Shown: positions 5,091 to 32,264 of the stretch, one piece after another | Layout of the letters: each line of letters opens with the position of its first letter | How positions within the stretch are numbered: the first letter of the stretch is position 1 | Source of the DNA: Arthrobacter sp. cf158 | GTDB lineage: Bacteria; Actinomycetota; Actinomycetes; Actinomycetales; Micrococcaceae | Reading direction: 5' to 3' | NCBI RefSeq assembly: GCF_900106835.1 | Contig: NZ_FNNR01000004.1 | Span: 1-64,000, forward strand | Length of the DNA: 64,000 nt | Program-made: the position numbers and the translations under genes | The notes under the pieces: generated by a model | Told to the model about the DNA's origin: nothing | Seen by the model: only the letters and a program-made list of their open reading frames with translations | Database searches by the model: none

Positions 5091-7313
5091 GTGCCATCAG
5101 CAAGAAGTTCCGCAACCGCCCCTTCGTCTGCTCCCAAGCCGGGAGCGCGGGGAGGCACTACAGCCGCGGGGATTTCCCTGCCATGGCAACTGGCAGGACT
5201 AGCTGCGCTGTTCCTGGTTCTGGCAGGGGCACTCATCTTCTCAGGAGCCTCCGCCGCCCGCCAGGTCTCGGACCCGGGCGCGTTGGTCCGGTGGGGCCTC
5301 CCCTTCGCGAAGGCCATCCACAATGTTTCCGTAGCCACAGTGGTTGGCGGCCTGATCTTTGCCGTGGGCATCCTGCCCAAAAACCTCGGCGGCTCCCGCT
5401 CCCGTGAGAAGGACCTCGACGCACCGGAGCATCCCGCTTTCGCCCGAGCACTGGCAGTTGCCGCTGCAGCGGGGGCGGCATGGACATTGTCCGCGGTCGC
5501 TGTATTGGTCCTCACCTACGCCGACGTAGCGGGCCAAGCACTTTCCGGAGACGCGGAGTTCACCCGCTCGCTGGTGTATTTCATGACGGACATCGAAACG
5601 GGCAAGGCCTGGCTCGCGGTCACCATCATCGCCGCCGTGGTCACCACCGCACTCTTCGGTGTCCGTTCCCTGACCGGCCTGGCGTTCACTCTCTTGCTGG
5701 CCTTGATCGGGCTCATTCCCACCGCCCTGATCGGTCACTCTTCAAGCTCCAGTGACCACGAAGGCGCCATCAACTCCCTGGGTCTCCACCTGGTGGGCGT
5801 GTCCACGTGGGTTGGCGGCATCATCATGCTTGCGGTCCTCTCGGGAATTCTCACGGGTTCCCGGAGCAACGGAACTCCGGACATCACCGGCCAAACCCTC
5901 CAGCGCTTCTCCTCGCTGGCAGGCTTCGCTTTCGTCCTGGTGTTCGCCTCGGGCGTCATCAACGCGGCCATCCGCGTCACCAACCCCGCAGACTTGTTCG
6001 GCTCGTCATACGGCCAACTCATCGTCGCCAAGGCACTCGCCACGCTGGTGCTGGGTGGAATCGGCTTCATGCACCGCCAGTGGGTCATTCCGCAGCTCGG
6101 CAAGAACGGTTCCATGTCTGCCCGCCGCGTGTTGTGGCAGCTGATTTTGGTGGAGCTGCTGGTGATGGGCGCGACGTCGGGACTCGCCGTAGCGCTGGGA
6201 CGCTCGGCACCGCCGCAGCCCACCACCTATGCACCTGATGCGTCGCCGTCGTTCATTCTCTCCGGCTACGAGCTCCCTCCTGAACTCACTCCGGAACGCT
6301 GGCTGACCGAGTGGCGTTTTGACTGGCTCTGGGTGGGGGTCGCGCTGTTCGGTGCGGTCACCTACATCATGGGCATCGTCAAGGTCCGCAAGCGTGGCGA
6401 CAAATGGTCCTGGTTCCGGTCAGTGAACTGGATGATCGGCCTGGTGGTGCTCACCTACATCACCTCGGGACCGCCGGCTGTCTACGGCCGTGTTTTGTTC
6501 TCTGCGCACATGGTGGACCACATGGCACTCACCATGGTGGCTCCGATCTTCCTGGTCCTCGGCGCACCGGTAACCCTTGCCCTGCGTGCCCTCCCGGCCA
6601 GGGGCGAAGGCGCCCACGGCTCACGGGGACTGCGCGAATGGTTGCTGCTGTTTGTGCACTCAAAGTTCTCGCAGATCGTGACGCACCCGTTGTTCGCTGC
6701 GGCAAACTTCGCAGGGTCCATCGTCCTGTTCTACTACTCGGACCTCTTCGGCCTGGCGATGCGTGAGCACGTGGGCCATGAGCTCATGAACGTGCACTTC
6801 CTGTTGACCGGTTACATCTTCGTGCTGAGCATGATCGGAAGCGACCCCCTGCCACGCCGCGCTCCGTACCCAATGCGCCTGCTCCTCCTGCTGGCCACCA
6901 TGGGCTTCCATGCCTTCTTCGGCGTGGCCATCATGGGTGGCACCGGGCTGCTGGCTGCAGATTACTTCGGCAACCTGGGCCGGGCATGGGGTCCGTCGGC
7001 CATTGGAGACCAGCAACTTGGCGGCGCCGTGGCGTGGGGCATCGGCGAAGTGCCTACATTGCTGGTGGCAATCGGAGTGGCAGTGATGTGGTCCCGCTCG
7101 GACGAACGGGAGACCCGCAGGGTGGATCGTGCAGCGGACAGGAATAACGACGCCGATCTCAGTGCTTACAACGATATGTTTGCCCGGCTCGCTGACCGCG
7201 ATGCCAAGCTGGCAAGCCGCACTGCCCAACCATCCAGGACGGCCCCGGCCGAACGCCCCACCACAGGCCCTGCCGGGCAGACTGAACCAAACACCAAGCT
7301 GGAAGGACGCTGA
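5091..7313 (+). CDS. CopD-type copper resistance/CtaG cytochrome oxidase assembly fusion membrane protein
   Basis: 740 residues with many hydrophobic segments. The N-terminal half (residues ~25-370) resembles CopD (LVRWGLPFAKAIHNVSVATVVGG, HLVGVSTWVGG with paired histidines). The C-terminal part (~400-680) is a caa3-type CtaG domain (SAHMVDHMALTMVAPIFLVLGAP, GYIFVLSMIGSDPLPRRAP). Such fusions are common in actinobacteria and are thought to handle copper for cytochrome oxidase assembly at the membrane. GTG at 5091 is the chosen start, with only a weak upstream GCGGA. The charged tail (REGDERETRRVDRA-like) is cytoplasmic or extracellular. The stop overlaps the ATG of the thioredoxin-NHL gene (TGATG), so the two are translationally coupled. 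Confidence 0.87.
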   Translation: MPSARSSATAPSSAPKPGARGGTTAAGISLPWQLAGLAALFLVLAGALIFSGASAARQVSDPGALVRWGLPFAKAIHNVSVATVVGGLIFAVGILPKNLGGSRSREKDLDAPEHPAFARALAVAAAAGAAWTLSAVAVLVLTYADVAGQALSGDAEFTRSLVYFMTDIETGKAWLAVTIIAAVVTTALFGVRSLTGLAFTLLLALIGLIPTALIGHSSSSSDHEGAINSLGLHLVGVSTWVGGIIMLAVLSGILTGSRSNGTPDITGQTLQRFSSLAGFAFVLVFASGVINAAIRVTNPADLFGSSYGQLIVAKALATLVLGGIGFMHRQWVIPQLGKNGSMSARRVLWQLILVELLVMGATSGLAVALGRSAPPQPTTYAPDASPSFILSGYELPPELTPERWLTEWRFDWLWVGVALFGAVTYIMGIVKVRKRGDKWSWFRSVNWMIGLVVLTYITSGPPAVYGRVLFSAHMVDHMALTMVAPIFLVLGAPVTLALRALPARGEGAHGSRGLREWLLLFVHSKFSQIVTHPLFAAANFAGSIVLFYYSDLFGLAMREHVGHELMNVHFLLTGYIFVLSMIGSDPLPRRAPYPMRLLLLLATMGFHAFFGVAIMGGTGLLAADYFGNLGRAWGPSAIGDQQLGGAVAWGIGEVPTLLVAIGVAVMWSRSDERETRRVDRAADRNNDADLSAYNDMFARLADRDAKLASRTAQPSRTAPAERPTTGPAGQTEPNTKLEGR

Positions 7314-9286
7314 TGAGCGAAACCGTACGCACCCAACTCCGGGTCCGGGCCTCCGAACTGGAGGGCCGCGGCTGGCTCAACACGGGCGGCAAGTCACTGG
7401 ACCTGGAATCCCTCCGGGGAAAGATCGTGCTGCTGGACTTCTGGACCTTCTGCTGCATCAACTGCCTGCACGTCCTGGATGAACTGCGCCCGCTCGAGGA
7501 AAAGTACTCGGACGTCCTGGTGACCGTTGGGGTGCACTCGCCCAAGTTTGAACATGAAGCGGATCCCGTCGCACTGGCATCTGCCGTTGAACGCTACGAA
7601 ATCCACCACCCCGTTCTGGATGATCCCGAACTGGCAACGTGGAAGGCCTACACAGCCCGCGCATGGCCAACCCTGGTGGTCATTGACCCCGAGGGCTACA
7701 TCGTGGCGCACCTTTCGGGCGAGGGCCACGCAGATGGCCTGGCCGTTCTGCTCGAGGAACTCGTGGCCGAGCACGAAGCCAAGGGAACCCTCCACCGCGG
7801 CAACGGCCCGTACGTGGCTCCGGTACCGACGTCGGGCACTTTGCGTTTCCCCGGAAAGGCCACTCAGCTGGCCAACGGCAACTACCTCGTAGTGGACTCG
7901 GGACACCACCGGCTGGTGGAACTCCGGCCCGATCTGGAGACCGTGGAGCGAGTCATTGGCTCGGGCACCAAGGGGTACCTGGACGGACAGGCGGAAATCG
8001 CGCAGTTCAACGAGCCGCAGGGCGTCGCTCTGCTCCCCTCCGAGCTTGCTTGGAAGCTGGGCTACGACGCCGTGGTGGCAGACACCGTCAACCACCGCTT
8101 GCGCGGTGTGACGCTGAGCTCCGGCTACGTGCAAACGGTAGCGGGCAACGGTGTACAGCGCCTGCTCGACGCCGGTCCCGCCCGGGTGACGGACACCGGC
8201 GCCGGCACGTGGTCTGAACATCACGACGGCGGCCAGGCCGACTTCGCTGCCGACGCCATCGATGTTGGGGCGCTGGGTCTGGGCACAGGGGTCTCCCTGT
8301 CCTCGCCGTGGGACGTGGTGTGGAGCGAGAAGCTGCAGCGCGTTGTTATCGCCATGGCAGGAACCCACCAGATCTTCGCCTTTGATCCCTTGAGCAACCA
8401 GGTTTCCATCCTGGCTGGTTCCGGACTTGAGGGCCTGTTGGATGGCAAGGCCGAGGAATCCTGGTTCGCGCAGTCGTCCGGCCTGGCCATCGACGCCGAC
8501 CACAACATCTGGGTTGCTGACTCGGAGACTTCATCCCTGCGCCGCCTGGTGGTCAGCGATTCCGGGGTGACCGTGGAAACCGCTGTAGGCAAGGGCCTGT
8601 TCGACTTCGGCTTCCGCGACGGCGATGCCACTGAAGCGCGTCTCCAGCACCCCTTGGGCGTCACAGTGCTTCCCGACGGCTCGGTGGCAATCGCCGATAC
8701 GTACAACGGTGCCGTTCGCAGGTATGACCCCGCCACCAAGTCCGTGTCCACGTTGGCGAGGGGCCTCGCTGAGCCAAGTGACGTGGTGGTGGTCCAGGTG
8801 GAAGGCAGCGAGCCCCTGCTGGTAGTGGTGGAGTCGAACAAGCACCAGCTGGTTCTGGTTCCCATCCCCAAGGAAGCCCAGCAGGTGGACGAAGGTGCCT
8901 CCCAGACACACCGTCCCAAGAGCCCGGTGACCCCGGGAAACCTGCAGCTCGCAGTCCGGTTCAAAGCCCCCACCGGCCAAAAACTGGACGACCGTTGGGG
9001 CGACCCCACACAGCTGAAGATCTCCTCCACACCGCCGGAACTGCTGGTCTCGGGAGGCGGAACCTCGGTGGGCTTGCTGCGCACCCTTGAGCTGTCCGCA
9101 GATGTTCCCGAGGGCATCCTTCACATCACGGCCCGCGCGGCCGCCTGCGATGGTCCCGAAACCGAGGACGGCGAAATTCCGGATCACGCAGCCTGCCACC
9201 TGTACCAGCAGGACTGGGGCATTCCCGTAGTCCTGCAGGCCGACGGCGAATCGGAGCTGGTACTGGACCTCCGCGGCATGGACTAA
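7313..9286 (+). CDS. thioredoxin-like domain plus NHL-repeat protein (NHLRC2-like)
   Basis: 657 residues. Residues ~10-150 form a TlpA/thioredoxin-like domain with LDFWTFCCINCLHVLDEL, where CINC supplies the CxxC redox pair, and AWPTLVVIDPEG with the cis-proline. From ~160 to 520 there are NHL/beta-propeller blades (FNEPQGVAL, QHPLGVTVLPDGSVAIADTYNGAVRRYD). The C-terminal ~130 residues are a further beta-rich region. This architecture matches animal NHLRC2 and its bacterial relatives. No signal peptide is seen, so it is probably cytosolic. Its ATG overlaps the CopD-CtaG stop, which suggests a joint role in copper or thiol chemistry; that is inference, as the bacterial family has no firm function. 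Confidence 0.85.
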   Translation: MSETVRTQLRVRASELEGRGWLNTGGKSLDLESLRGKIVLLDFWTFCCINCLHVLDELRPLEEKYSDVLVTVGVHSPKFEHEADPVALASAVERYEIHHPVLDDPELATWKAYTARAWPTLVVIDPEGYIVAHLSGEGHADGLAVLLEELVAEHEAKGTLHRGNGPYVAPVPTSGTLRFPGKATQLANGNYLVVDSGHHRLVELRPDLETVERVIGSGTKGYLDGQAEIAQFNEPQGVALLPSELAWKLGYDAVVADTVNHRLRGVTLSSGYVQTVAGNGVQRLLDAGPARVTDTGAGTWSEHHDGGQADFAADAIDVGALGLGTGVSLSSPWDVVWSEKLQRVVIAMAGTHQIFAFDPLSNQVSILAGSGLEGLLDGKAEESWFAQSSGLAIDADHNIWVADSETSSLRRLVVSDSGVTVETAVGKGLFDFGFRDGDATEARLQHPLGVTVLPDGSVAIADTYNGAVRRYDPATKSVSTLARGLAEPSDVVVVQVEGSEPLLVVVESNKHQLVLVPIPKEAQQVDEGASQTHRPKSPVTPGNLQLAVRFKAPTGQKLDDRWGDPTQLKISSTPPELLVSGGGTSVGLLRTLELSADVPEGILHITARAAACDGPETEDGEIPDHAACHLYQQDWGIPVVLQADGESELVLDLRGMD

Positions 9287-13275: not shown

Positions 13276-13794
13276 TTAGCTGTGCACGGCAAGATCCTTG
13301 CTGAACGCCAAATGCTTGATTTCCTCGGGGTCCGCGGCGAGGTCGAACAGCGCTTTGTACCCTGTGGCCAAATACAGGTTCTTGGCCTCCGGCTGGCGCG
13401 GACCGGTGGTCAGGTAGAGCTTCCGGTAGCCGCGGCGGCGCGCTTCGTTTTCAAGTTCCGTCAGGACCAGGCGTGCCAGTCCACGACGCCGATGGGCTGA
13501 GTGTGTCCAGATCCGCTTGAGCTCTGCTGTGTGCTCGGCGTAACGGCGGAAGGCCCCGCCGGCCACGGATTCGCCGTTTTCCTGAATGATGATCAACGCT
13601 CCATGCGGGGCAGCGAATTCTTCGGCGGGGTAGCGGTTCAGTTCCTCCGCGGCCCCTTCGCTGCTGAACAGGTCCCCGTAGCGGGTGTTGTATTCGACCG
13701 CGAGCTCGTCCAGGAGCGGACGAACGCGGGGATCGCGCATGGGCAGGCTGAGGACGGTAAGGCCCGACGTCGGCAGGGTTGGCGTTGTTGTCAT
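13276..13794 (-). CDS. GNAT family N-acetyltransferase
   Basis: 172 residues. The acetyl-CoA loop is HSAHRRRGLARLVLTELENEARRRG, followed by KLYLTTGPRQPEAKNLYLATGY, typical of single-domain GNATs. It starts one base after the stop of the FAD/NAD(P)-binding gene and ends ~10 bp before the HerA-like gene, so the three are co-transcribed. The operon is divergent from the ABC transporter-LLM operon. In Bacillus subtilis the ytmI and yxeK operons include GNATs that N-acetylate S-alkylcysteines before monooxygenase attack, so this enzyme is a plausible functional partner. That role is inference. Confidence 0.82.
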   Translation of the reverse strand: MTTTPTLPTSGLTVLSLPMRDPRVRPLLDELAVEYNTRYGDLFSSEGAAEELNRYPAEEFAAPHGALIIIQENGESVAGGAFRRYAEHTAELKRIWTHSAHRRRGLARLVLTELENEARRRGYRKLYLTTGPRQPEAKNLYLATGYKALFDLAADPEEIKHLAFSKDLAVHS

Positions 13795-13795
13795 G

Positions 13796-15733
13796 TCAGG
13801 CCTTTCGCAGGGCGCCGGTAAGTTCGCGGGTAGTGGTCAGGGTTTCCAGGATCCGGCGCGCCAGGGCGTCGTTCTCCCGGAACGGTGCTGCATTGGTGTT
13901 GGGCCGGGCAAAGGCCCCCGCACCCCAACCGGACGTCCACGGGCCCACCGCAAACAATCCGTTCTGTGGAGTACCAACAGGGGACAATACCTGGTGATTC
14001 CCGGAGACCAGGAGTTTCCCGGTGGAGTGCGCGCCTTCGGAGGTGAGCAGCCTCTGTTCGGTGCCCCATCCGGCGTCGTGCAGGTCAGCCAGGGCGGGGT
14101 TTGCGGAGCGTTCAACCGAAGCTGAAGGCAGCCGGGCCTCGATGTAGGCGGACGCGTCAACCACCACGGGCGACTGGAACGAACCGGCCACGAACCGGCC
14201 TACGGAATCATCGGCACGCACCCACATGCCAGGACCCAGGAACTTCAGGAGACCTGCCCGGTGCAGCGCGAGCATCTCGCGGAGGCGGTGAGACGGCGGA
14301 CCGGAGTCCACAAAGCTGAAGAAACCGTGCCACCAGCCGTGGATGGTCTGCTGGGAGCGGGCGTTGAGCCGTTCCTGGGGAACCAGCCGGCCCAAGTCCA
14401 TATAAACGAATAACAGCGCAGTGAAGAGGGCCAGGGTCTGGGAGTGGTCCGGGCTGGTGCGGAGGGTGAGGTCGTTCTGGATGTAGGCGGCCACTGAGCG
14501 CTGGACGGTGTGGTGGTCCGCAAAGGCGCAGCCGCTCAACGGGTGGTCCAGTTTCTCCAGGTCCAGGCGCAGTGCGGGATTGGGCACGGCGAAGTTGACC
14601 AGGTCTTCCCGGGCGGAGCTGTACCAATCAACGGCGTCGAAGTGGGCCTCGAAGCTGGTCCACGTTCCCAGGACGCGTTCCGGGTAACCCGTGAACAGCT
14701 CACGGTAGTACGCGTAGCCTGCGTCCTTGGCGATGAGCGGCCAGAGCTGGGTACGGAAATCGAGTTCCTGGTGCTCGGCCAGCAACGCCTCCACAGCCTC
14801 GGCGGTAAAGTACCGCGGGCGGGCAACCGGCTCGCCGCGCAAAGTGGAGGAGATCTTGGAGTGGTACGGCACACCGCGTCGTGACCCTGCCCAGACCGTG
14901 GGTTCGGCGCCGGAGGGGACATAGTCCAGTTCGCCGTCGGGCCGTTCCTCGAAGCGGCCACCGCGACCCTCGAACAGCAACACCAACAGGTCCACGAATG
15001 CCAGGCCCATGCCGGCGACGATCACGTCCTGGCCGGCTTTCACGCCCGAGTAGTCCACGTCCGTGGTGTACGACGGCGGCGCATGGAACCCACCGTGTTT
15101 GGCGGCGAAGTCACTGAGACGTACGGATTCCGGGTCCGGCTGCGAGTCGGTGTGGCCCAGGGCGTACACCACGACGTCGGCAACCACCTCGGCGCCGGAG
15201 GCCAACCGAACGCGGTGCGTACCGGCGTCGTGCCCGCAAGCGGCAGCGGCTGTGACGCCGATGGCCGTGTCACGGTGCACCGTCACCGTGACCTGGGGGC
15301 CGAGCGCGGCAACAGCCCGGCCGAAAAACCACTCGAGGTACTTGCTTTGGAGTTGCCGGGTGGGAAAGGACGCCGGAGTCAGGGAGCGCAGTTGTGCGAG
15401 CAGGTGCGGTTCCAGCGCAGGAACGTCCCTGATGGTGCCATCCAGCACGCCCGCTGCCCATGTTGAAAGACCCGGGCCGTCCACCGTGGGGCCATCGCAG
15501 GCCACGGAGTCGTCGGTGAACATGGTGACGTCAGCGGCCGTTGAGTTGAGCAGCAGGCCGGGGTCCTGGTCATAGCGCCAGATCCTCCCGGACCCTGGCT
15601 GGTGCGGCTCGATGACGTGGATGTGCAGCGGACCGTCAAACAGGTCAGCGCGGTTCGCGGCCAGCCGTTCGAGGACGCCGGCCGTGCGCGGGCCGCCGCC
15701 GATGAAGGCGAGGGCGGGTACTCGTGACGGCAT
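13796..15733 (-). CDS. FAD/NAD(P)-binding protein (NAD_binding_9 family)
   Basis: 645 residues. The Rossmann motif FIGGGPRTAGVLERLAA is near the N-terminus and a second dinucleotide-binding region appears around VDYSGVKAGQDVIVAGMGLAFVDLLVLLFEGRGG. The family (flavoprotein monooxygenase-like, pfam13454) is poorly characterised. ATG 15733 is chosen because AGGAG lies five bases upstream; the frame itself is open to 15829. It heads the leftward operon with the GNAT and HerA-like genes, and its start faces the ABC transporter operon across 288 bp, an arrangement consistent with co-regulation. Confidence 0.85.
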   Translation of the reverse strand: MPSRVPALAFIGGGPRTAGVLERLAANRADLFDGPLHIHVIEPHQPGSGRIWRYDQDPGLLLNSTAADVTMFTDDSVACDGPTVDGPGLSTWAAGVLDGTIRDVPALEPHLLAQLRSLTPASFPTRQLQSKYLEWFFGRAVAALGPQVTVTVHRDTAIGVTAAAACGHDAGTHRVRLASGAEVVADVVVYALGHTDSQPDPESVRLSDFAAKHGGFHAPPSYTTDVDYSGVKAGQDVIVAGMGLAFVDLLVLLFEGRGGRFEERPDGELDYVPSGAEPTVWAGSRRGVPYHSKISSTLRGEPVARPRYFTAEAVEALLAEHQELDFRTQLWPLIAKDAGYAYYRELFTGYPERVLGTWTSFEAHFDAVDWYSSAREDLVNFAVPNPALRLDLEKLDHPLSGCAFADHHTVQRSVAAYIQNDLTLRTSPDHSQTLALFTALLFVYMDLGRLVPQERLNARSQQTIHGWWHGFFSFVDSGPPSHRLREMLALHRAGLLKFLGPGMWVRADDSVGRFVAGSFQSPVVVDASAYIEARLPSASVERSANPALADLHDAGWGTEQRLLTSEGAHSTGKLLVSGNHQVLSPVGTPQNGLFAVGPWTSGWGAGAFARPNTNAAPFRENDALARRILETLTTTRELTGALRKA

Positions 15734-15946
15734 GGGATCTCCTGAAAAACAGTGGTTGGTGCAGTCCAATCTAGGGACGTCCGGGCGGGCGGGTCGAGGA
15801 GCGGGTAACCGCCGTTCACCACGCGTCACGGAACGTCAAGACCCGCAAAACCACGACTCATTTGACGCTTGATGAACGCAATTGTGACGCCGTGCGTAGC
15901 CCTGAGAAGTCCTGCTAAGCCGGGTGAAGAAGTGCAAATTGCTGCC

Positions 15947-15976
15947 TTGCTGGCGGGTTTGGCACGCCCATAGATT
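15947..15976 (+). promoter_or_regulatory. candidate promoter of the ABC transporter-LLM operon
   Basis: TTGCTG (15947-15952), an 18-bp spacer and TAGATT (15971-15976) form a reasonable sigma-70 promoter 46 bp before the permease start. It sits in the 288-bp divergent gap. No CGGCAACC-type riboswitch core is visible here. Confidence 0.5.
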
Positions 15977-16021
15977 GGCAGCCATCCGATAGACAACAAC
16001 CGAACTGAAATGAGGTGGCGC

Positions 16022-16987
16022 ATGAGTGCAATCGCACCGCCTGCCACGGCGGACACTGCACCGCCCACCCCGGACTACTCCGAGTACAAGCTGGTCCCGG
16101 CCCGCCACCCGTGGCGATGGGTGGGGACCGTACTGGTTGCTGCCGGCGTCGCTGCCATCGCATGGTCCCTGGTGACCAACCCGCGCTGGGAGTGGGGTGT
16201 GGTGGCCGAATGGTTCACAGCACAGTCGGTGGTCAACGGGCTCATCGAGACCCTTAAACTCACTGCCATTTCCGGTGTGCTGGGATTCGTGCTCGGTTTC
16301 ATCCTCGCGCTCATGCGGCTGTCCGCTTCACCGCTGCTGGTCTCGGTGTCCTGGACGTTCTCCTGGATCTTCCGCTCCACTCCGCTGCTGGTCCAGCTCC
16401 TGCTTTGGTACAACCTGGGCTACCTGTACGAGAAGATCAGCCTGGGAATCCCCTTTACGGACGTCCGCTTCTTCGAAGCACAGACCACCACGCTCATCAG
16501 CCAGTTCGCCGCAGCAGTCCTGGGCCTCACCCTGAACCAGGCGGCCTACTCTGCGGAGATCATCCGTGGTGGCATTCTCTCCGTGGACCAAGGCCAGCTT
16601 GAAGCGGCCTCCGCCTTGGGCATCCCGGCGTGGAAGCGCTCCACCAGGATTGTGCTGCCGCAAGCCATGCGCGCCATCCTGCCCAACGCCTTCAACGAGA
16701 TCATTGGCCTGGTCAAGGGAACGTCGATTGTTTACGTCCTGGCCTACTCCGAGCTCTTCTATACGGTCCAGGTCATCTACAACCGGACCCAGCAGGTACT
16801 GCCGCTGCTGCTCGTTGCCACGCTCTGGTACGTGGTGATCACCTCCGTGCTGAGCGTCTTCCAGTACTACATAGAACGCCACTTCTCCAAGGGTGCCCTG
16901 CGCACGCTGCCGCTCACGCCCTTGCAGAAGGCCCGCAAGTTCTTCGCCACCCATGTTGCTGCCTCTCCCACGAAGGACGCCCGATGA
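16022..16987 (+). CDS. amino acid-type ABC transporter permease
   Basis: 321 residues of the His/Glu/Gln/Arg-type (polar amino acid) permease family. Several membrane segments are visible, and the EAA loop reads LEAASALGIPAWKRSTRIVLPQAMRAILP. FRSTPLLVQLLLWYNLGYLYE is also typical. ATG 16022 is selected over ATG 16010 because GAGGTGG lies directly upstream of it. It is the first gene of a seven-gene operon, and its stop overlaps the ATPase start (ATGA). Only one permease is present, so it probably acts as a homodimer. The substrate is probably a sulfur-containing amino acid, inferred from the downstream monooxygenases. Confidence 0.93.
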   Translation: MSAIAPPATADTAPPTPDYSEYKLVPARHPWRWVGTVLVAAGVAAIAWSLVTNPRWEWGVVAEWFTAQSVVNGLIETLKLTAISGVLGFVLGFILALMRLSASPLLVSVSWTFSWIFRSTPLLVQLLLWYNLGYLYEKISLGIPFTDVRFFEAQTTTLISQFAAAVLGLTLNQAAYSAEIIRGGILSVDQGQLEAASALGIPAWKRSTRIVLPQAMRAILPNAFNEIIGLVKGTSIVYVLAYSELFYTVQVIYNRTQQVLPLLLVATLWYVVITSVLSVFQYYIERHFSKGALRTLPLTPLQKARKFFATHVAASPTKDAR

Positions 16988-17865
16988 GCATCATCGCTGC
17001 ACGCAAAGAATCCACGACGACGGCACAGGCTGACGCTGAAAACCAGACCGCCGCCTCGGTTACCTCGACTCCAGTGGCCCCTGCCACCCGTGGACAGGTG
17101 GACATCAGCAACGTCCGGAAGTCCTTCGGCGTCACGGAGGTCCTCAAGGGTGTGTCCTTGTCCGTCCAGCCAGGCGGAGTGGCTGTGATCGTGGGCCCTT
17201 CCGGCTCTGGTAAGTCCACCCTGCTGCGCACCATTAACCACCTGGAAAAGGTGGACGGTGGTTATATCACCATCGATGGCGAACTGGTGGGCTACGAGGT
17301 CCGCGGAAACAAGCTCCACGAACTGCGCGAGAAAGACATCCTCAAGCAGCGTACCCACATCGGCATGGTGTTCCAGAGCTTCAACCTCTTCCCGCACCTC
17401 ACCGCCCTGGAGAATGTCATCGAGGCGCCGATCGTGGCGCAGAAGCGATCCAAAGCCGAAGCCCGGAAGCGTGGACTGGAGCTCCTGGACCGTGTGGGCC
17501 TGAAGGACCGTGCCGACGCCTACCCACGCCAGCTCTCCGGCGGTCAGCAGCAGCGCGTTGCGATTGCCCGTGCACTGGCGCTTGATCCCAAAATTCTGCT
17601 CTTCGACGAGCCCACGTCCGCACTTGACCCGGAACTCGTCAACGAGGTACTGGACGTCATCCGGGAACTCGCAAAGTCCGGCACAACGCTGATCATTGTG
17701 ACCCACGAGATGGGCTTTGCCCGGGACGTCGCGGACACCGTGGTCTTTATGGACCAAGGCCAGATTGTCGAGGCCGGCACACCGCAGGACATCTTCGCCA
17801 ACCCACGCGAGGAACGCACCCGCAGCTTCTTCTCCAAAGTCATCGAACCAGCTTTCAACATCTAG
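16984..17865 (+). CDS. amino acid-type ABC transporter ATP-binding protein
   Basis: 293 residues. Walker A is GPSGSGKST, the Q-loop is MVFQSFNLFPH, the ABC signature is LSGGQQQR and Walker B is ILLFDEPTSALDPE, with the switch histidine in VTHEMGF. A ~35-residue Thr/Ala-rich N-terminal extension (MSIIAARKES to VAPATRG) precedes the canonical start of the domain at VDISNVRKSFG. The ATG overlaps the permease stop. It energises import with the neighbouring permease and binding protein. Confidence 0.95.
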   Translation: MSIIAARKESTTTAQADAENQTAASVTSTPVAPATRGQVDISNVRKSFGVTEVLKGVSLSVQPGGVAVIVGPSGSGKSTLLRTINHLEKVDGGYITIDGELVGYEVRGNKLHELREKDILKQRTHIGMVFQSFNLFPHLTALENVIEAPIVAQKRSKAEARKRGLELLDRVGLKDRADAYPRQLSGGQQQRVAIARALALDPKILLFDEPTSALDPELVNEVLDVIRELAKSGTTLIIVTHEMGFARDVADTVVFMDQGQIVEAGTPQDIFANPREERTRSFFSKVIEPAFNI

Positions 17866-17875
17866 GACACCCTCC

Positions 17876-18856
17876 ATGCTTCGCAAGACCAAAACCAGGT
17901 TCCTGGCACTCGCTGTACTCCCCGCCGTCGTGCTTCCTGCGTTGGCCGGGTGCTCCGATCCCGGGGCGTCGGCCGCCAAGCCGGAGTCTGAGGCCGCCAA
18001 GAACGGCGTCGTCTACAACACCTCTGTTGACCAGAACCGGATCCGTGGGGAGAAAGACGCTGCCGCAGCGGGGGCCGTTCCTGCGGCCATTGCCAAGGAC
18101 GGCAAGCTCACCGTCGCCACCACTGCAGGTTCCATTCCGCTGTCCTTCCACGCCACGGATGACAAGACACCAATTGGCGTTGAGGTGGACATCGCCCAGC
18201 TCGTGGCCGACAAGCTCGGATTGGAACTGGACCTGCAGGTAACGTCCTGGGAGAACTGGCCGCTGAAGACCCAGTCCGGCGACTTTGAGGCAGTGTTCTC
18301 CAACGTGGGCATCAACGCAGCGCGTGTGAAGCTGTTCGATTTCTCCACCTACCGTGCTGCGTACATGGGTTTCGAAGCGAAGAAGAGCGCCAGTTACGAC
18401 ATCAAGGGCTCGGACGACATTTCCGGTCTGAAGATCTCCGTAGGTTCCGGCACCAACCAGGAGAAGATCCTGCTGGCCTGGAACAAGGAGCTTGAGGACA
18501 AGGGCAAAGCACCGGCCACGCTGCAGTACTACTCCTCGGACGCCGATACCATTCTGGCTCTCTCCTCAGGCCGCACTGACCTGAACCTGGCACCGTACCC
18601 ATCGGTCACGTACCGGGAGAACACCCGCGATGACCTGAAGGTAGTGGGCAAGGTTAACGCCGGCTGGCCGGCCGAGACCCTGGTGGCCGCCACCACCCTC
18701 AAGGGCAACGGACTGGCCCCGGCCATCACCGATGCCTTGAACTCCACCATCAAGGACGGCTCCTACGGCAAGGTCCTGGAACGCTGGGGTCTTTCCGAGG
18801 AAGCCATCCCGGAGTCCAAGACCGTCACCGAGGCCACCTTCGGAGCAGGCAAATGA
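17876..18856 (+). CDS. ABC transporter substrate-binding lipoprotein
   Basis: 326 residues of the polar amino acid-binding family (SBP_bac_3). The signal peptide ends in a lipobox LPALAGC, so it is a lipoprotein. The mature part has VEVDIAQLVADKLGLELDL, FEAVFSNVGINAARVKLFDFSTY and VGSGTNQEKILLAWNKEL. It is clearly paralogous to the binding protein encoded at 30996-31979, with matching DGKLTV, EVDIA, FDF.TYR and VGSGTNQE blocks. ATG 17876 follows the ATPase stop by 10 bp, and the stop overlaps the next ATG. Confidence 0.94.
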   Translation: MLRKTKTRFLALAVLPAVVLPALAGCSDPGASAAKPESEAAKNGVVYNTSVDQNRIRGEKDAAAAGAVPAAIAKDGKLTVATTAGSIPLSFHATDDKTPIGVEVDIAQLVADKLGLELDLQVTSWENWPLKTQSGDFEAVFSNVGINAARVKLFDFSTYRAAYMGFEAKKSASYDIKGSDDISGLKISVGSGTNQEKILLAWNKELEDKGKAPATLQYYSSDADTILALSSGRTDLNLAPYPSVTYRENTRDDLKVVGKVNAGWPAETLVAATTLKGNGLAPAITDALNSTIKDGSYGKVLERWGLSEEAIPESKTVTEATFGAGK

Positions 18857-20019
18857 AGTTCCAGGTCCTGGATATCATCCCGCACCTGAAGAACCCGGTC
18901 ACGGGGGAGATCGTCTCCACCGCTGACCGGCTGAACCAGGTAGTGGAGACAGCAAAGAGGTCCGAGGAACTCGGCTTGGACAGTTTCTCCGTGGGCGAGC
19001 GTCACGCAGGCGAGTTCGTCTCGTCATCGCCCACGACGGTCCTTGCCGCGATTGCCGCCGTCACCCACCGCATCCGCCTGCAGACCGGCGTCACCGTGCT
19101 CTCCGTCCTGGACCCGGTGCGGGTGGCCGAGGATTACGCCACCATCGACCAACTGAGCCGTGGCCGCTTGGAACTGGTGATCGGCAAGGGCAACGAAGTC
19201 CTGCAGTACCCGCTTTTTGGCCTGTCCCTGGATGACCAATGGGATCTGCTCGCGGAAAAGTACGCACTGCTGCGGACGTTGTGGCGCAAGGAAAGCGTCA
19301 CTTGGTCCGGTCGCTTCCGGCCCGCGCTCACCGAACCGACCACGACGACGCCGCGCCCCTTCGCGGGGTCGCCGCGGATTTGGCACGGCTCGGCTACAAC
19401 CCTGACGTCCGCTGCGCTCGCCGCCAAGTGGGGTGATCCGCTGTTCACGGCCAACGCCATCCAGCCGCGTGAAAACTACAAGGTCCTGATCGACCACTAC
19501 CGCGAAGAATACGAGCGTCATGGGCATGATCCGCGTCACCAGTACCTGGGCTCGGGCAGCGGGGCCGGTGGGGTGTTCATCGCGGACACCACTCAGGAAG
19601 CCATCCGCCAGTACGGTCCGGTCTATGAAGGTCTGACGGCCAACCGCAACGTCCCCGGCAACAACTCGCCATTCCGGGACATCCAGCACGCCGTAGCCGA
19701 GGGCCCGGCCCTGGTAGGCAGCCCTGAGCAGGTGATCGACAAGATCCTCAGCTACCACTCGCTGTACAACCACGATCTCCAGTCGATCTCCTTGCCCACC
19801 ACTCTGCCCTTCGAGCAGCAGCTCGAGATCCTGGAACGCTTCGCGCTGGAGGTCATCCCGGCCGTACGGGCCTCGGCGCCCACCACGCTGTGGGAAGCCG
19901 GGGATCCTTTTGCGGGCCGCCCCGAATCCGCCGGTGCCACCGAGCCGGACGCAGCAGCAGCAGTCACCGCAGACCACGCCTTGAACAGGAGCGACACCGC
20001 ACATGTCTACGCACACTGA
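18853..20019 (+). CDS. LLM class flavin-dependent oxidoreductase (first in operon)
   Basis: 388 residues of the bacterial luciferase-like monooxygenase family. GLDSFSVGERHAGEFVSSSPTTVLAAIAAVT and RVAEDYATIDQLSRGRLELVIGKG are characteristic. Such enzymes use FMNH2 and O2, often to oxidise or cleave sulfur compounds. The start codon overlaps the binding-protein stop (ATGA) and its 3' end overlaps the DUF1684 start by 17 bp, so all are translated from one message. An FMN reductase is not encoded in the operon and must come from elsewhere. Confidence 0.9.
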   Translation: MKFQVLDIIPHLKNPVTGEIVSTADRLNQVVETAKRSEELGLDSFSVGERHAGEFVSSSPTTVLAAIAAVTHRIRLQTGVTVLSVLDPVRVAEDYATIDQLSRGRLELVIGKGNEVLQYPLFGLSLDDQWDLLAEKYALLRTLWRKESVTWSGRFRPALTEPTTTTPRPFAGSPRIWHGSATTLTSAALAAKWGDPLFTANAIQPRENYKVLIDHYREEYERHGHDPRHQYLGSGSGAGGVFIADTTQEAIRQYGPVYEGLTANRNVPGNNSPFRDIQHAVAEGPALVGSPEQVIDKILSYHSLYNHDLQSISLPTTLPFEQQLEILERFALEVIPAVRASAPTTLWEAGDPFAGRPESAGATEPDAAAAVTADHALNRSDTAHVYAH

Positions 20020-20830
20020 AACAGCACTCGAATCCTTTGACGAAGAATGGCGGGAGTGGCATGCCGCGCATGAGCGCCACCGTGCCCACCCGCATGGCTT
20101 CCTCGCCGTCACCCACCTGCACTGGCTCAGCAGCGAAGCAACCCGGCTGGAAGGCGCGCCGGGCACCTGGAGCGCGGAGGACGACGTCGTACGTGTTGTC
20201 CTGGAGCCCGGCGAAAGCCTGCAGCAGGACGGAGTGGAACTGAGCGTCGGAGTGCCGGTTGTGCTGGGGCCGATCGCGGAACGCGGCGGGATCAACCTGG
20301 TGTCCGGCGACACTGTGATCGAAGTTGCCAAGCGCGGCGGCGAATACATCGTGCGGCCGCGGAACCCATCGAATGCCCTCTTGCAGGAGTATCAAGGTAC
20401 GCCGGCCTACACGCCCAACGCTGCCTTTGCCGTTGGAGGGACGTTCGTCCCCTTCGAGGCGCCGCGCCCCACCACGGTGGGTGCCGCCGTTGAAGGCATC
20501 CAGCACGTTTACGAAGCCCCGGGCGAGATCCGGTTCAAGCTCGCAGGCGAGGAGCTGGTGCTGACCGCGTTCAACGGGCACGCGCCGGGCTCGCTCTCCG
20601 TGCTGTTCACCGACCAGACCTCGGGCAAGACCACCTACGCGGCCAACCGTTCGCTGTCCGTGGTGCCCGCCGAAGATGGCTCCGTGCAACTCGACTTCAA
20701 CCGGGCAGTGAACCTGCCCTGCGCGTACACCGACCTCGCGACCTGCCCGCTGCCGCCCGCCGAAAACCGGCTTCCGGTGGCCATCGAGGCCGGCGAAAAG
20801 ACCCCCTACGAACGTCAGGACCAGAAGTGA
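20003..20830 (+). CDS. DUF1684 family protein
   Basis: 275 residues. The family signature is clear in the C-terminal third: LDFNRAVNLPCAYTDLATCPLPPAENRLPVAIEAGEK, together with the N-terminal FDEEWREWHAAHERHRAHPHGFLAVTHLHWL. No signal peptide or membrane segment is seen, so it should be cytosolic. The biochemical role of DUF1684 is unknown to me. Two cysteines and a DFNRA block are the candidate functional residues. Its position between two LLM genes, overlapping both neighbours (17 bp and 4 bp), argues for a role in the same oxidative pathway. Confidence 0.88.
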   Translation: MSTHTETALESFDEEWREWHAAHERHRAHPHGFLAVTHLHWLSSEATRLEGAPGTWSAEDDVVRVVLEPGESLQQDGVELSVGVPVVLGPIAERGGINLVSGDTVIEVAKRGGEYIVRPRNPSNALLQEYQGTPAYTPNAAFAVGGTFVPFEAPRPTTVGAAVEGIQHVYEAPGEIRFKLAGEELVLTAFNGHAPGSLSVLFTDQTSGKTTYAANRSLSVVPAEDGSVQLDFNRAVNLPCAYTDLATCPLPPAENRLPVAIEAGEKTPYERQDQK

Positions 20831-21885
20831 GCACTGTAGCCAAGGCCGGGTTCCTGGCCATTGAACTCGATGGCGCCGGGTATGAGGACCTTGCCCGCGC
20901 TGTCCTCTCCGCCGAGTCCGCTGGTTTCCACGTGGCAACCTTCAAGGACGCGCCGGAAGCGGGCCGGGCCAACGCCCTGCAGCGCGCCGCCTTCGCAGGC
21001 CCCCTAACCCGGACCATCGCCGTCGTGCCGGAGGTGGACACCGTATATACGGAGCCCTTCCACATCTCCACGCAGCTGGCGAGTCTGGACTACGTGTCCG
21101 GCGGGCGTGCCGGGTGGATCGCTACCGCAGCGGTGGCACCCGAGGCTGCCGCCGCCGTCGGACGTTCCTTCGTTGAAGGTGACGCGCTGGCGCAGGAGGC
21201 TGCCGCGTCCATCGAGGTTGGACGCCGGCTGTGGGATTCCTGGGAGGACGACGCCGTGATCCGCGATGTCGCCACCGGCCGCTACATCGACGTCGACAAG
21301 CTGCACTACGCAGACTTTGAAACCCCGGCGGACTTTTCCGGGGCCGGCTATTCGGTGAAAGGCCCGTCCATCATTCCGCGGCCGCTCCAGGGCCAGCTGC
21401 CGGTGTTGGCCCCGGCGTCGCTGGTGGGCGAGGGCCTGGTTCCTGCCGATGCCGTGGACGCCGTCCTGGTCAGCGCGCCGACTCCGGAGCTGCTTGCCGG
21501 GGAGGTTCGTGACGTGCGCGCGCGACTCGGTGCCTCCGTGGCGATTGTTGCGGAGCTCGACGTCGTCCTGGACGCGCGTGGGCAGGCTGCGGCCTCACGT
21601 TCAGTGGCCTTCCAAGGCGACCGTGCGGGATATGTTGGCTCGGCGGCCGGTCTCACCGACCTTCTGGCCTCACTCCTTCAAGAGGCCGACGGCGTCCGTC
21701 TCCACCCAGCCGTTGTGGAAATTGAGCTCGACGAACTGTCACGGCTTGTCCTCCCGGAGCTGAGGCGCCGCGGTTCGCTGCGTGCGCCGATCCAGGACGG
21801 CACGTTCCGCGACGTGCTCGGGCTGGAGCGCCCGGAAAGCCGCTATTCGACGACTGCCGCGGCCAGTGCTGCTGCCGGAAATTAA
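20827..21885 (+). CDS. LLM class flavin-dependent oxidoreductase (second in operon, divergent)
   Basis: 352 residues. It is a shortened, divergent luciferase-like protein: YEDLARAVLSAESAGFHVATFKDAP takes the place of the usual opening, and FHISTQLASLDYVSGGRAGWI matches the LLM barrel motif. Start is GTG (GTGA overlap with the DUF1684 stop). The central region is Ala/Val-rich, and active-site identity cannot be judged. It could be a paralogous subunit paired with one of the other LLM proteins, as in two-component monooxygenases; this is inference. Confidence 0.82.
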   Translation: MSTVAKAGFLAIELDGAGYEDLARAVLSAESAGFHVATFKDAPEAGRANALQRAAFAGPLTRTIAVVPEVDTVYTEPFHISTQLASLDYVSGGRAGWIATAAVAPEAAAAVGRSFVEGDALAQEAAASIEVGRRLWDSWEDDAVIRDVATGRYIDVDKLHYADFETPADFSGAGYSVKGPSIIPRPLQGQLPVLAPASLVGEGLVPADAVDAVLVSAPTPELLAGEVRDVRARLGASVAIVAELDVVLDARGQAAASRSVAFQGDRAGYVGSAAGLTDLLASLLQEADGVRLHPAVVEIELDELSRLVLPELRRRGSLRAPIQDGTFRDVLGLERPESRYSTTAAASAAAGN

Positions 21886-21894
21886 GGGGACCCC

Positions 21895-23247
21895 ATGACA
21901 CAGCACAACCGTGCTATTTTCCAGCCGAGCGGCCAGATCCAGTTCGGCATCTTCTTCCAAGGAGTGAACTCCGGGACCATCTGGAAAGCCCAGGAATCAG
22001 GCTCACAGACGGACTTCGAGTCGTTCCGGCACATCGTCCAGACTGCCGAGCGCGGAAAGTTCGCGGCCTTCTTCCTGGGCGAAGGGCTGCGCCTCCGTGA
22101 ACACCTCGGACGCCCGCATGCCTTGGACGTTGTGGGTAGGCCCGACGCTCAGACCATGCTTGCCGCACTCGCCGCCGTGACCACCAACATCGGCCTGGTG
22201 GCCACGCAGAACACCACCTACAACGATCCCGCAGACCTCGCGCACCGCTTGTCTTCCCTGGACCTGATTTCTGGTGGACGCGCTGCGTGGAACGTGGTGA
22301 CCACGGATAACGCCTGGACGGGAGCCAACTTCCGCCGTGGTGGCTATCTGGACCACGCTGACCGCTACAAGCACGCCGAGGCGTTCGTGGAAACCGCCAA
22401 GCGCATCTGGGACTCCTGGGAGACTCCGTCCGGCCCGGCCCGCCGTGTGGTGCACGAAGGCCAGCACTACACCGTGGACGTCACTCCGCGTTTGCCGCGA
22501 AGCGCCCAGTACCGTCCTGTGCTCTTCCAGGCCGGCGACTCCCCGGAAGGCCGCGACTTCGCAGCCCGGCAGGCAGACGTGATCTTCTCCGCCCACCCCA
22601 AATTCGATAACGCCGTGGAGTTCCGCCGCGACATCGTGGCACGGTCCGTGGCTGCGGGCCGCGGAGCCAATGCCGTCCAGATCATGCCGGCCAGCGAGTT
22701 CATCCTGGCAGCCACTGACCAGGAAGCCCAGGAAAAGAAGGCTTGGGTCCGTAGCCTGCAGATCGGACCGCAGCAGGCCATCGCGTACCTGGAGCAGTTC
22801 TGGGGCCGGGAGCTTTCTTCCTATGACCCGGATGGTCCCTTGCCGGAGATCGACCCCGTGGTGGAGGAAACCTCGGAGACCCGTGGCAGCGGCTTCCATG
22901 GTGCCAAGGCAAGGCAACTTGCCGATCAGTGGCGGGCTGAGGCAAAGGACAAGGGCTTCTCCATCCGCCAGTTTGTCACCTCGAAGACTGCGCGCATCGA
23001 TGCCACCTTCACCGGCTCCTACACCGCGGTGGCGGACCACCTCGCCGAATATGCACGGGTTGGGGCCGTGGACGGGTTCAACATTTCACCGTGGCTCATC
23101 CCCACAGGTCTGGACGACATCGTGAACCACCTGGTGCCCGAACTCCAGGAACGCGGCGTCTACCCGACGGAATACCGTGGGACTACCCTGCGGGAAAACC
23201 TGGGGCTCGAGACGCCGGTGCGGTCCGAAGACCCGGTACAGGTCTGA
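21895..23247 (+). CDS. NtaA/SnaA/DszA-type FMN-dependent monooxygenase
   Basis: 450 residues, the usual length of the NtaA/SnaA/SoxA(DszA) family. Diagnostic blocks are FGIFFQGVNSGTIWK, AERGKFAAFFLGEGL, SSLDLISGGRAAWNVVTTDN and FRRGGYLDHADRYKHAEAFVE. Members cleave C-S or C-N bonds (DszA, nitrilotriacetate and EDTA monooxygenases, and B. subtilis YtnJ acting on N-acetylated S-alkylcysteines). It is the last gene of the operon, 9 bp after the preceding stop, and is followed by a long inverted repeat. The substrate is not readable from sequence. Confidence 0.92.
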   Translation: MTQHNRAIFQPSGQIQFGIFFQGVNSGTIWKAQESGSQTDFESFRHIVQTAERGKFAAFFLGEGLRLREHLGRPHALDVVGRPDAQTMLAALAAVTTNIGLVATQNTTYNDPADLAHRLSSLDLISGGRAAWNVVTTDNAWTGANFRRGGYLDHADRYKHAEAFVETAKRIWDSWETPSGPARRVVHEGQHYTVDVTPRLPRSAQYRPVLFQAGDSPEGRDFAARQADVIFSAHPKFDNAVEFRRDIVARSVAAGRGANAVQIMPASEFILAATDQEAQEKKAWVRSLQIGPQQAIAYLEQFWGRELSSYDPDGPLPEIDPVVEETSETRGSGFHGAKARQLADQWRAEAKDKGFSIRQFVTSKTARIDATFTGSYTAVADHLAEYARVGAVDGFNISPWLIPTGLDDIVNHLVPELQERGVYPTEYRGTTLRENLGLETPVRSEDPVQV

Positions 23248-29745: not shown

Positions 29746-29984
29746 GGGGTAAGTCTACTCACGTGCAGAACCCGGTTTTATCGATGCTGGGATCCGACGA
29801 ATTAAAGATGCGGTGGATCCAGTGAAATCAGGGGTTTCATGTGCAACGGCAAATTGCCGTGAGCGCAAACGGGAACAAAGTCCTGGAGAAGTGCCGGGAG
29901 GGGTGTGTGCCTGGACGGCGCAACGTACTAGGCGGAAGCGTTCCCGCCACCCGTAGGATGAAGCGGACGAAAGGTGCCGCCCTC

Positions 29985-30914
29985 ATGGTTACACGCGAAG
30001 AAGTAGAAGCCGCATATTCACGGACATCAGGCTGGGTTCGCCACACACCCTTGGCCGAGAGCGGCAACCAGGAACCGTATCACCTGTGGTTCAAATGCGA
30101 GTACATGCAGCACACGGGCTCATTCAAGGCCCGCGGTGCGTTCAACCGGCTGCTGGCGGCGAAGGAGAACGGCGAACTGGATCCGGAGGTTGGGATCGTG
30201 GTGGCTTCCGGTGGCAACGCCGGCCTGGCCAACGCCTACGCAGCCGCGAAACTGGGCGTGCCAGCCACTGTGTTCGTTCCCGAATCCGCACCGGCGAACA
30301 AGGTGCACAAGCTGTACGCCATTGGCGCGAAGGTAGTGCAGGGCGGCAGCGAATATGCCGAGGCGTATGCCGCCGCCATCCGCTTCGCCGAGGAGAAGGG
30401 CGCGGTCTACTGCCACGCCTATGACCAGCCGGAAATCGTGGCCGGAGCCGGCGGTGTGGGACTGGAACTGCTGGATGAACTGCCCGACGTCGACACGATC
30501 GTTGTTGCTGTTGGCGGCGGCGGGTTGATGGGCGGCATTGCGGCAGCCGCCGAAGGCCGGGCGCACGTGGTGGGTGTTGAACCGGAGACTGTCCCTACCC
30601 TGCACACGGCATTGGCCAAGGGCGAGCCGGTGGACGTGGCAGTCTCCGGCATTGCAGCCGATTCGCTGGGTGCCCGCCGGATTGGCGAGATTGGCTTCGG
30701 AGTGGCCCGCCGTACGGGTGTGCAAAGCGTCCTTGTCAGCGACGAGGACATCGTCCAGGCCCGGCGCGACCTGTGGGAGAAGCACCGCATCGTGGTGGAG
30801 CACGGGGCAGCTGCAGCGTACGCGGCGCTGTTGTCCGGGGCGTATAAACCGCACGACGGCGAGACCGTTGCGGTGATTCTCTGCGGCGCCAACACGGACC
30901 CCGCACACTTCTAA
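29985..30914 (+). CDS. PLP-dependent threonine/serine dehydratase-like enzyme
   Basis: 309 residues, fold type II. The PLP lysine lies in HTGSFKARGAFNRLL, the phosphate-binding loop is VVASGGNAGLANAYAA, and the glycine-rich region is VAVGGGGLMGGIAA. It is close to serine/threonine ammonia-lyases (about 310-330 residues) and lacks a regulatory ACT domain, so it resembles a catabolic-type enzyme. HAEKLP-type substrate details are not resolvable. ATG 29985 is chosen with AAAGGTG upstream; ATG 29958 is in frame. It is divergent from the MauE gene and convergent with the binding-protein gene, with a hairpin between. Confidence 0.88.
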   Translation: MVTREEVEAAYSRTSGWVRHTPLAESGNQEPYHLWFKCEYMQHTGSFKARGAFNRLLAAKENGELDPEVGIVVASGGNAGLANAYAAAKLGVPATVFVPESAPANKVHKLYAIGAKVVQGGSEYAEAYAAAIRFAEEKGAVYCHAYDQPEIVAGAGGVGLELLDELPDVDTIVVAVGGGGLMGGIAAAAEGRAHVVGVEPETVPTLHTALAKGEPVDVAVSGIAADSLGARRIGEIGFGVARRTGVQSVLVSDEDIVQARRDLWEKHRIVVEHGAAAAYAALLSGAYKPHDGETVAVILCGANTDPAHF

Positions 30915-31979: not shown

Positions 31980-32205
31980 GAGTTCTCCTTGGGTTGCCCG
32001 AAACGGGACGTCTGATGCGTGCTTGTGGCTGCAACTATCCGGTAGCCCTTGGGAGGTGGTCAAAGCGCCCTGAAACGCTGGGATACAGGGGGTCACGGCG
32101 GTTAATCGGGCGTCGAACGGTGTCACAAAAGCACCCCGGGAACCTGGAGAAACCACCGCGCGACGCAACTCACAGAAATAAGCCGGGTGCCGCCGTCGTT
32201 GTGGC

Positions 32206-32224
32206 TAGAGTGCCCGGCAACCAA
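32206..32224 (+). promoter_or_regulatory. candidate promoter -10 and CCGGCAACC leader in divergent region
   Basis: In the 285-bp gap between the binding-protein and LLM genes, TAGAGT (32206-32211) resembles an actinobacterial -10 box but no clean -35 is visible. Immediately after, CCCGGCAACC occurs, a string found in SAM-binding riboswitch cores. The flanking pairing is not convincing enough to call a riboswitch, and the element would otherwise fit sulfur-responsive control of this locus. Confidence 0.3.
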
Positions 32225-32264
32225 CCGTGCGGGCGCCGCGAAACGTACTGAAAGGCATTTCCCC

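Follow-up and report, generated by a model that had tools for sequence, protein, structure and literature searches.

Salvage of cysteine conjugates has been studied in Bacillus. In B. subtilis, the ytm/ytn (CmoO/CmoJ) genes follow a logic of acetylation, oxidation and cleavage (as outlined in PMC10863075 and PMC12757645), and the yxe/scm operon acts on S-(2-succino)cysteine (as described in PMC9706529). Here we compare with these systems a block of nine genes, two leftward and seven rightward, at positions 13276-23247 of the window, which is the whole 64-kb stretch of DNA from the soil bacterium Arthrobacter sp. cf158 that was analyzed. The block shares with ytm/ytn an acetyltransferase, an amino-acid ATP-binding cassette (ABC) transporter, a monooxygenase of the CmoJ family and another luciferase-like monooxygenase (LLM), and with yxe/scm an acetyltransferase, an ABC transporter and an NtaA-type monooxygenase. 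Unlike ytm/ytn, it has no deacetylase gene and possesses an extra FzmM-like flavin adenine dinucleotide (FAD) protein, a DUF1684 protein and an additional LLM (LLM2); the role of LLM1 as the counterpart of CmoO is putative. Unlike yxe/scm, it encodes three LLMs rather than one, and neither a YxeP-type deacetylase nor any other yxe-only gene. We have not placed it in either B. subtilis operon type because an in-cluster deacetylase was looked for and not found. An earlier note on this DNA had drawn the Bacillus parallel, which holds at the level of the gene set, more for ytm than for yxe, and nothing that was examined points to S-(2-succino)cysteine itself.

We read the nine-gene set, by analogy, as a module that scavenges sulfur by way of N-acetyl S-substituted cysteines, with a probability of about 0.5. 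The transporter would import a carboxylate thioether, either a cysteine S-conjugate or its N-acyl form, which the GNAT would N-acetylate or keep acetylated, and its sulfur would be converted to the sulfoxide by the FAD monooxygenase, LLM1 or both. Oxidative cleavage of the C-S bond would then fall to a heterodimer of NtaA, bearing the flavin mononucleotide (FMN) site, and LLM2, its degenerate partner, and would give an aldehyde or keto acid and N-acetylcysteine sulfenate. The Cx7C thiols of DUF1684 would help in reducing the sulfenate back to a thiol, and cysteine would be released by a deacetylase whose gene lies elsewhere. The sequence itself provides the gene families, a conserved unit, the residue losses of LLM2, the Cx7C motif and the sulfur context in relatives; from these we infer the substrate, the order of steps, heterodimer formation and the redox role of DUF1684. 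Uptake and desulfurization of an S-alkylated amino acid, as the earlier note had suggested, is retained as the best reading, with CmoO/CmoJ rather than YxeK as its model and with a substrate that is itself conjectural.

13276-13794, minus strand: GNAT N-acetyltransferase, 172 amino acids (PF00583, 58.5 bits, cut-off 20.7; in 37 of 37 usable genus loci)
13796-15733, minus strand: FAD/NAD(P)-binding monooxygenase of the FzmM/CreE fold family (P0002; PF13454; PDB 8cp2, E 6.7e-74)
15734-16009, no strand: divergent regulatory region, 276 bp (alignment of 38 genus sequences)
16010-16987, plus strand: ABC permease, polar amino acid/cystine type (PF00528; TIGR01726, 63.2 bits, cut-off 42.2)
16984-17865, plus strand: ABC ATPase, 293 amino acids, ATG at 16984 (PF00005; EhuA/TcyN-like, both under their equivalog cut-offs)
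17876-18856, plus strand: lipoprotein solute-binding protein (SBP; P0005), SBP_bac_3 family (PF00497)
18853-20019, plus strand: LLM1, CE1758/Atu2307-like luciferase-like monooxygenase (TIGR04036, 262.8 bits, under the cut-off of 479.1)
20003-20830, plus strand: DUF1684 protein, 275 amino acids (PF07920, 149.6 bits)
20720-20746, plus strand: Cx7C motif of DUF1684, Cys240 and Cys248 (motif alignment)
20827-21885, plus strand: LLM2, short degenerate NtaA-like LLM, proposed partner subunit (TIGR03860, 137.6 bits, cut-off 279.7)
21895-23247, plus strand: NtaA/DmoA-type FMN monooxygenase (P0009), proposed catalytic subunit (TIGR03860, 351.2 bits, cut-off 279.7)

Family profiles and open reading frame coordinates bear out the nine-gene divergent set as first described, with the FAD protein and GNAT on the opposite strand at 13276-15733. 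The run from transporter through LLM1, DUF1684 and LLM2 to NtaA is gapless in the sense that neighbors overlap (permease/ATPase 4 bp, SBP/LLM1 4 bp, LLM1/DUF1684 17 bp, DUF1684/LLM2 4 bp) or lie no more than 10 bp apart (ATPase-SBP 10 bp, LLM2-NtaA 9 bp). The FAD protein likely starts at ATG 15733 rather than GTG 15829, and the top NCBIfam match of the permease is the cystine permease PRK15100, under its cut-off.

Conservation within and beyond the genus

The nine-gene set is conserved beyond chance. LLM2 was searched in 99 related genomes, 61 of them from the genus, and matched at 388 bits or more in 41 of these 61, own genome included. Sequence was fetched for 38 of the 40 other loci (G019 and G032 were left out) and one contig (L119) was too short, which leaves 37 usable loci, all identical in gene order and strands. 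GNAT, the FAD protein, permease, ATPase, SBP, LLM2 and NtaA are present in every one (LLM2 by construction), LLM1 in 24 and DUF1684 in 32, where its synteny with the NtaA-type LLM genes keeps the same order. All nine genes occur in 21 loci; 11 are without LLM1 only, 3 without DUF1684 only, and 2 without both.

Outside the genus the set is reshuffled. The wider sample comprised the best 80 of at least 511 LLM2 matches and is dominated by actinobacteria. A Kribbella locus (L107) carries on one strand permease, ATPase, SBP, GNAT, LLM2, NtaA, the FAD protein, another LLM, DUF1684 and LLM1, in that order, and a Blastococcus locus (L108) has eight of the nine parts spread over both strands.

The LLM2-NtaA pair

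How might a degenerate LLM be retained beside an intact one? LLM2 and NtaA are probably one enzyme, because the genes are closely spaced, LLM2 has lost NtaA invariants, and NtfO1-NtfO2 provides a precedent. Of the 80 loci, 67 have LLM2 and NtaA no more than 300 bp apart, and another 11 have them no more than 2.5 kb apart; no NtaA was seen in the remaining 2, but there the contig ends within about 1.1 kb. When 48 LLM2 and 26 NtaA sequences were aligned together, the NtaA invariants Asn133, Thr136, Arg157, Tyr158, Gln212, Ser216 and Arg220 (P0009 numbering) proved to be substituted in most LLM2 rows or in all of them, and LLM2 has an invariant WDSWE of its own. FMN was docked in NtfO2 at Thr133, His151, Tyr155 and Gln203 (reported in PMC8027225), residues that, read by motif, would correspond to Thr136, His154, Tyr158 and Gln212 of P0009; position 154 is His in 16 of the 26 NtaA rows. 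LLM2 may therefore be a partner subunit without flavin. Its structural model (predicted local distance difference test score, pLDDT, 84.9, weak at about residues 140-180) matches NtaA-type LLMs including CmoJ, and chain A of 7e36.

In NtfO1-NtfO2 and StmO1-StmO2, short and long LLM genes likewise stand side by side, and chains A and B of 7e36 match LLM2 and NtaA. Those pairs act in polyketide biosynthesis, where the NtfO1-NtfO2 heterodimer hydroxylates a polyketide (PMC8027225), whereas the heterodimer proposed here is putative. The precedent would also suit a heterodimeric hydroxylase for detoxification or tailoring of a non-sulfur compound, which we consider very improbable given that the importer is a dedicated one of the amino-acid type, that conservation extends to 41 of the 61 genomes of the genus, and that no biosynthetic cluster was seen among the ten flanking genes examined.

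NtaA passes the TIGR03860 cut-off, and its top PDB match is YtnJ/CmoJ (E 1.3e-63, 218.9 bits). Further matches include DszA/BdsA and an ethylenediaminetetraacetate (EDTA) monooxygenase (5dqp, E 7.7e-39), which ranks below CmoJ, BdsA/DszA and the Burkholderia pseudomallei enzyme 3sdo.

Other such pairs were encountered. The genome that contains the window has another LLM2-NtaA copy (L155, G000:C14:397474-411442), which lies near other LLM genes and a peptide-type SBP, with a MetN-like ATPase (305.9 bits, under the cut-off of 499.7) and a MetI-like permease as neighbors. One pair is on a contig labeled Candidatus Melainabacteria (L097), possibly through contamination or transfer. The Gordonia NB4-1Y genes RS14725/RS14730 and RS14155-RS14165 could be LLM2-NtaA pairs going by their published descriptions, and were not counted.

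DUF1684 as a candidate thiol protein

We propose that DUF1684 is a Cx7C thiol protein; its family is little studied, and a full-text literature search returned just one paper on it. The only strong structural matches of its model (pLDDT 86.3) are haloarchaeal DUF1684 structures, with Z scores of 14.0-21.3 over four entries, the best being 4fj4_A (Z 21.3, root-mean-square deviation 2.7, 173 aligned residues), whose title describes a mercury complex. The fold and Cx7C are common to the haloarchaeal proteins (4dlh, 4fj4, HVO_1043) and the protein described here, which differs in being encoded with LLM monooxygenases and in its longer N-terminal part. HVO_1043 was assigned to a thiol-relay group because of its conserved Cx7C (according to PMC9426492). 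The motif is present in 30 of 30 loci, window included, out of the 39 matches that 119 genomes across the phylum yielded, in 13 of the 14 complete rows of DUF1684 alignment A1, and in the Rhodococcus qingshengii locus L211. Beyond the Arthrobacter group, 8 of 71 LLM2 loci carry DUF1684 at a cut-off of 60 bits; chance would give about 0.15, a rough figure obtained from different genome sets (about 0.1 per megabase, taking each of the 119 genomes with their 39 matches to be a few megabases long, times at most about 1.5 Mb for these loci together).

DUF1684 could use its Cx7C thiols to reduce the sulfenate left by CmoJ-type cleavage; in B. subtilis a redoxin-like protein, YtnI, may fill this slot. 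The CmoJ product is described as a sulfenate that is reduced and then deacetylated (PMC10863075).

A flavin reductase role was rejected, as all six matches at E ≤0.001 are DUF1684 structures, and FHA-like matches of the model (Z about 5-7, residues 30-114) were not taken as meaningful. Of the five genus loci without an intact DUF1684, two retain remnants from its end between LLM1 and LLM2 (L151, about 8560-8820; L153, about 8560-8870), and in L153 the Cx7C end survives an apparent internal deletion.

The FAD protein and the importer

The FAD protein aligns over its full length with 8cp2, an L-aspartate N-hydroxylase of the FzmM/CreE type, and has a class B FAD site with a catalytic Asn. When positions were compared by hand, Arg13, Asn62, Arg577 and Arg593 of 8cp2 were found to be kept and Arg266 to be replaced by Lys; both the catalytic Asn62 (Asn95 in P0002) and the Lys at 266 are present in 52 of 52 aligned relatives. 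By contrast, the aspartate-binding Arg cluster, with residue names as in PMC10404684, is without a counterpart: Arg276, Arg409, Arg412, Asn413 and Arg416 align with other residues (Val, Met and Gly for Arg276, Asn413 and Arg416, respectively), the alignment of this helical part being uncertain. Aspartate N-hydroxylation was rejected and aspartate is an unlikely substrate because this cluster is not kept; the enzyme might instead act on a different amine or on the sulfur of a thioether.

The SBP keeps Arg203, which we take to be the usual carboxylate ligand, in 76 of 76 aligned relatives. At the place where AncQR and AncCDT-1 have an Asp, the usual amine ligand, P0005 has Pro293, a Pro shared by all 57 genus rows, among them paralogs, and by 18 of the 19 remaining rows. 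This hints at a ligand that is N-acylated or otherwise amine-free.

Elsewhere in the window a second SBP_bac_3 gene (30999-32168, minus strand), without permease or ATPase alongside, adjoins an LLM gene (32187-33251, plus strand), and a reading of its sequence by eye shows Pro at the amine-ligand position there too; beside it is a gene for a pyridoxal phosphate-dependent enzyme (29841-30911, plus strand).

Sulfur context in relatives

Relatives point to sulfur as the role of LLM2 loci. Of six annotated plasmid regions, three (L111, L114, L115) carry a "putative leader peptide" near LLM2; two of these leaders end in Cys-Arg-Pro, and that of L111 has no Cys near its end and precedes another gene. 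A pattern scan of 130 sources (2,281,929 bases) gave 18 leader matches, 14 within about 430 bp upstream of LLM2 and 4 elsewhere, an enrichment that is post hoc because the pattern was written after the three annotated leaders were known. The leader-bearing loci belong mostly to Streptomyces relatives, along with Pseudonocardia (L098) and Protofrankia (L100). One of the 4 matches elsewhere, in L077, precedes genes for SfnG (631.6 bits, cut-off 382.95) and SsuE (219.1 bits, cut-off 164.05), followed by an acyl-CoA dehydrogenase-like gene and then an LLM. Regulation of operons by cysteine-rich short open reading frames is described in mycobacteria (PMC9094748, citing Canestrari 2020).

The same context would suit a module that desulfurizes other organosulfur compounds (sulfonates, sulfones, sulfonate esters) in the manner of Dsz or SfnG, with the GNAT serving detoxification rather than installing a protecting group. 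SfnG-like genes (phmmer E <1e-25, which may take in other LLMs) occur in 9 of the 80 loci and SsuE-like genes in 6, counts made without a control set; ssuE is present in L111, and a sulfatase-like gene, an arylsulfate sulfotransferase and an SsuA-type SBP are neighbors in L112. DszA/BdsA are among the PDB matches of NtaA, and Gordonia nitrilotriacetate-monooxygenase genes, likened here by their published description and not by sequence, are induced on organosulfonates. However, the transporter encoded alongside is an amino-acid-type one whose SBP Arg persists in all aligned relatives, and the GNAT is constant in the genus block and is joined by an M20 amidohydrolase in Rhodococcoides locus L041. 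We regard this explanation as serious but unlikely.

Acetylation and expression

For the N-acetyl S-substituted-cysteine module, L041 presents the parts of an acetyl cycle in a row: M20 amidohydrolase, permease, ATPase, SBP, DAO, GNAT, LLM1, LLM2 and NtaA, with the M20 gene (TIGR01891, 282.6 bits, cut-off 153.75) directly before the permease. M20 genes are nearby in 3 of the 80 wider loci, and the Arthrobacter genome has 13 M20 matches elsewhere. In R. qingshengii IEGM 1359 (L211), permease, ATPase, SBP, DAO and GNAT lie on the same strand as, and about 5 kb before, LLM2, NtaA and DUF1684. In a published proteome of strain IGTS8 (PMC8557817), the products of three consecutive genes are raised on dibenzothiophene versus sulfate, namely peg5783 (an ABC ATPase), peg5784 (a periplasmic binding protein) and peg5785 (a sarcosine oxidase). 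Their order is that of L211 if the sarcosine oxidase is taken as DAO family. The NtaA-type peg3535 and peg5732 are also up, although not assignable to this locus, and Table 1 of PMC8557817 includes no GNAT of this locus.

The DAO-type oxidase of L041 would also have a place in C-N cleaving catabolism of an amino-polycarboxylate or N-substituted amino acid, comparable with that of nitrilotriacetate or EDTA, for nitrogen or carbon. The EDTA monooxygenase within the NtaA family, the amino-acid type of the transporter and the relation of the FAD protein to an N-hydroxylase are consistent with this. Set against them are the higher scores of CmoJ, BdsA/DszA and 3sdo and the cysteine-ending leaders and sulfur neighbors of relatives, and we judge such a role improbable.

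The divergent region

The 276-bp divergent region is kept in parts across the 38 aligned genus sequences. It contains a leftward -10-like TAGATT at 15773-15768 and a rightward promoter-like pair, TTGCTG at 15947-15952 and TAGATT at 15971-15976, with an 18-bp spacer. Between these divergent promoters, at about 15810-15860, are GCGTMA-type repeats about 10-11 bp apart that are kept in the genus; the block has no regulator gene. An 18-codon leader candidate read by eye in 15734-16009 was dropped, being neither kept in the aligned relatives nor matched by the leader pattern. In the 64-kb window no tRNA genes were found and no Rfam families at the gathering threshold; upstream of the block, 7313-9286 encodes a protein that combines a thioredoxin-like domain with NHL repeats.

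Weighing the proposal

Several findings count against the N-acetyl S-substituted-cysteine reading. No M20 deacetylase gene was found in any of 40 genus regions, and an amine-free SBP ligand would sit uneasily with the need for a GNAT. NtaA scores 218.8 bits against 3sdo, equal to CmoJ; the CmoJ function is therefore not proven, and the assignment holds at the family level only. LLM1 is under the cut-offs of its top NCBIfam families. Neither LLM1 nor DUF1684 is essential: of the 37 genus loci, 13 have no LLM1 and 5 have lost DUF1684 or keep it only in truncated form, so both are frequent but dispensable, and the Kribbella DUF1684 is missing its first Cys. The putative identity of peg5783-5785 with the L211 genes is judged from species, order and annotation, not from sequence.

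Regulation adds two further points. The window lacks any match to the leader pattern, and no convincing second site of the repeat pattern was found in the genome; the scan, allowing up to 3 mismatches, gave one perfect site (the one here) and two with 3 mismatches, against 1 and 3 for the reversed control, and is a weak negative since it used one rigid pattern. Sulfur control of the operon is therefore inferred from relatives only. The divergent regulon of the earlier note fits the shared promoter region but gains nothing from other genomic sites of its repeats.

Implications

A literature search for work combining at least three of the topics S-alkylcysteine, luciferase-like monooxygenase, N-acetyltransferase and actinobacteria returned no papers. 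For seuABC of Corynebacterium glutamicum, a possible precedent, the 15 papers listed out of 6,865 contained nothing relevant, which does not show it to be unpublished.

A bolder version of the proposal, which we hold to be doubtful, is that DUF1684 represents a novel type of reductase for small-molecule sulfenates, that the unit is dedicated to salvage of mercapturates (N-acetyl S-conjugates), and that C-S cleavage is performed by a heterodimer of active NtaA and flavin-less LLM2. If true, it would explain the lost amine-binding Asp of the importer, a Cx7C protein beside a sulfenate producer, and the conservation of a degenerate LLM. If the N-acetyl S-substituted-cysteine module is real, DUF1684 would gain a role that can be tested, as would an LLM gene pair that is widespread in actinobacteria and publicly annotated just as oxidoreductases, and cysteine-conjugate salvage would extend to actinobacteria with a different enzyme set.

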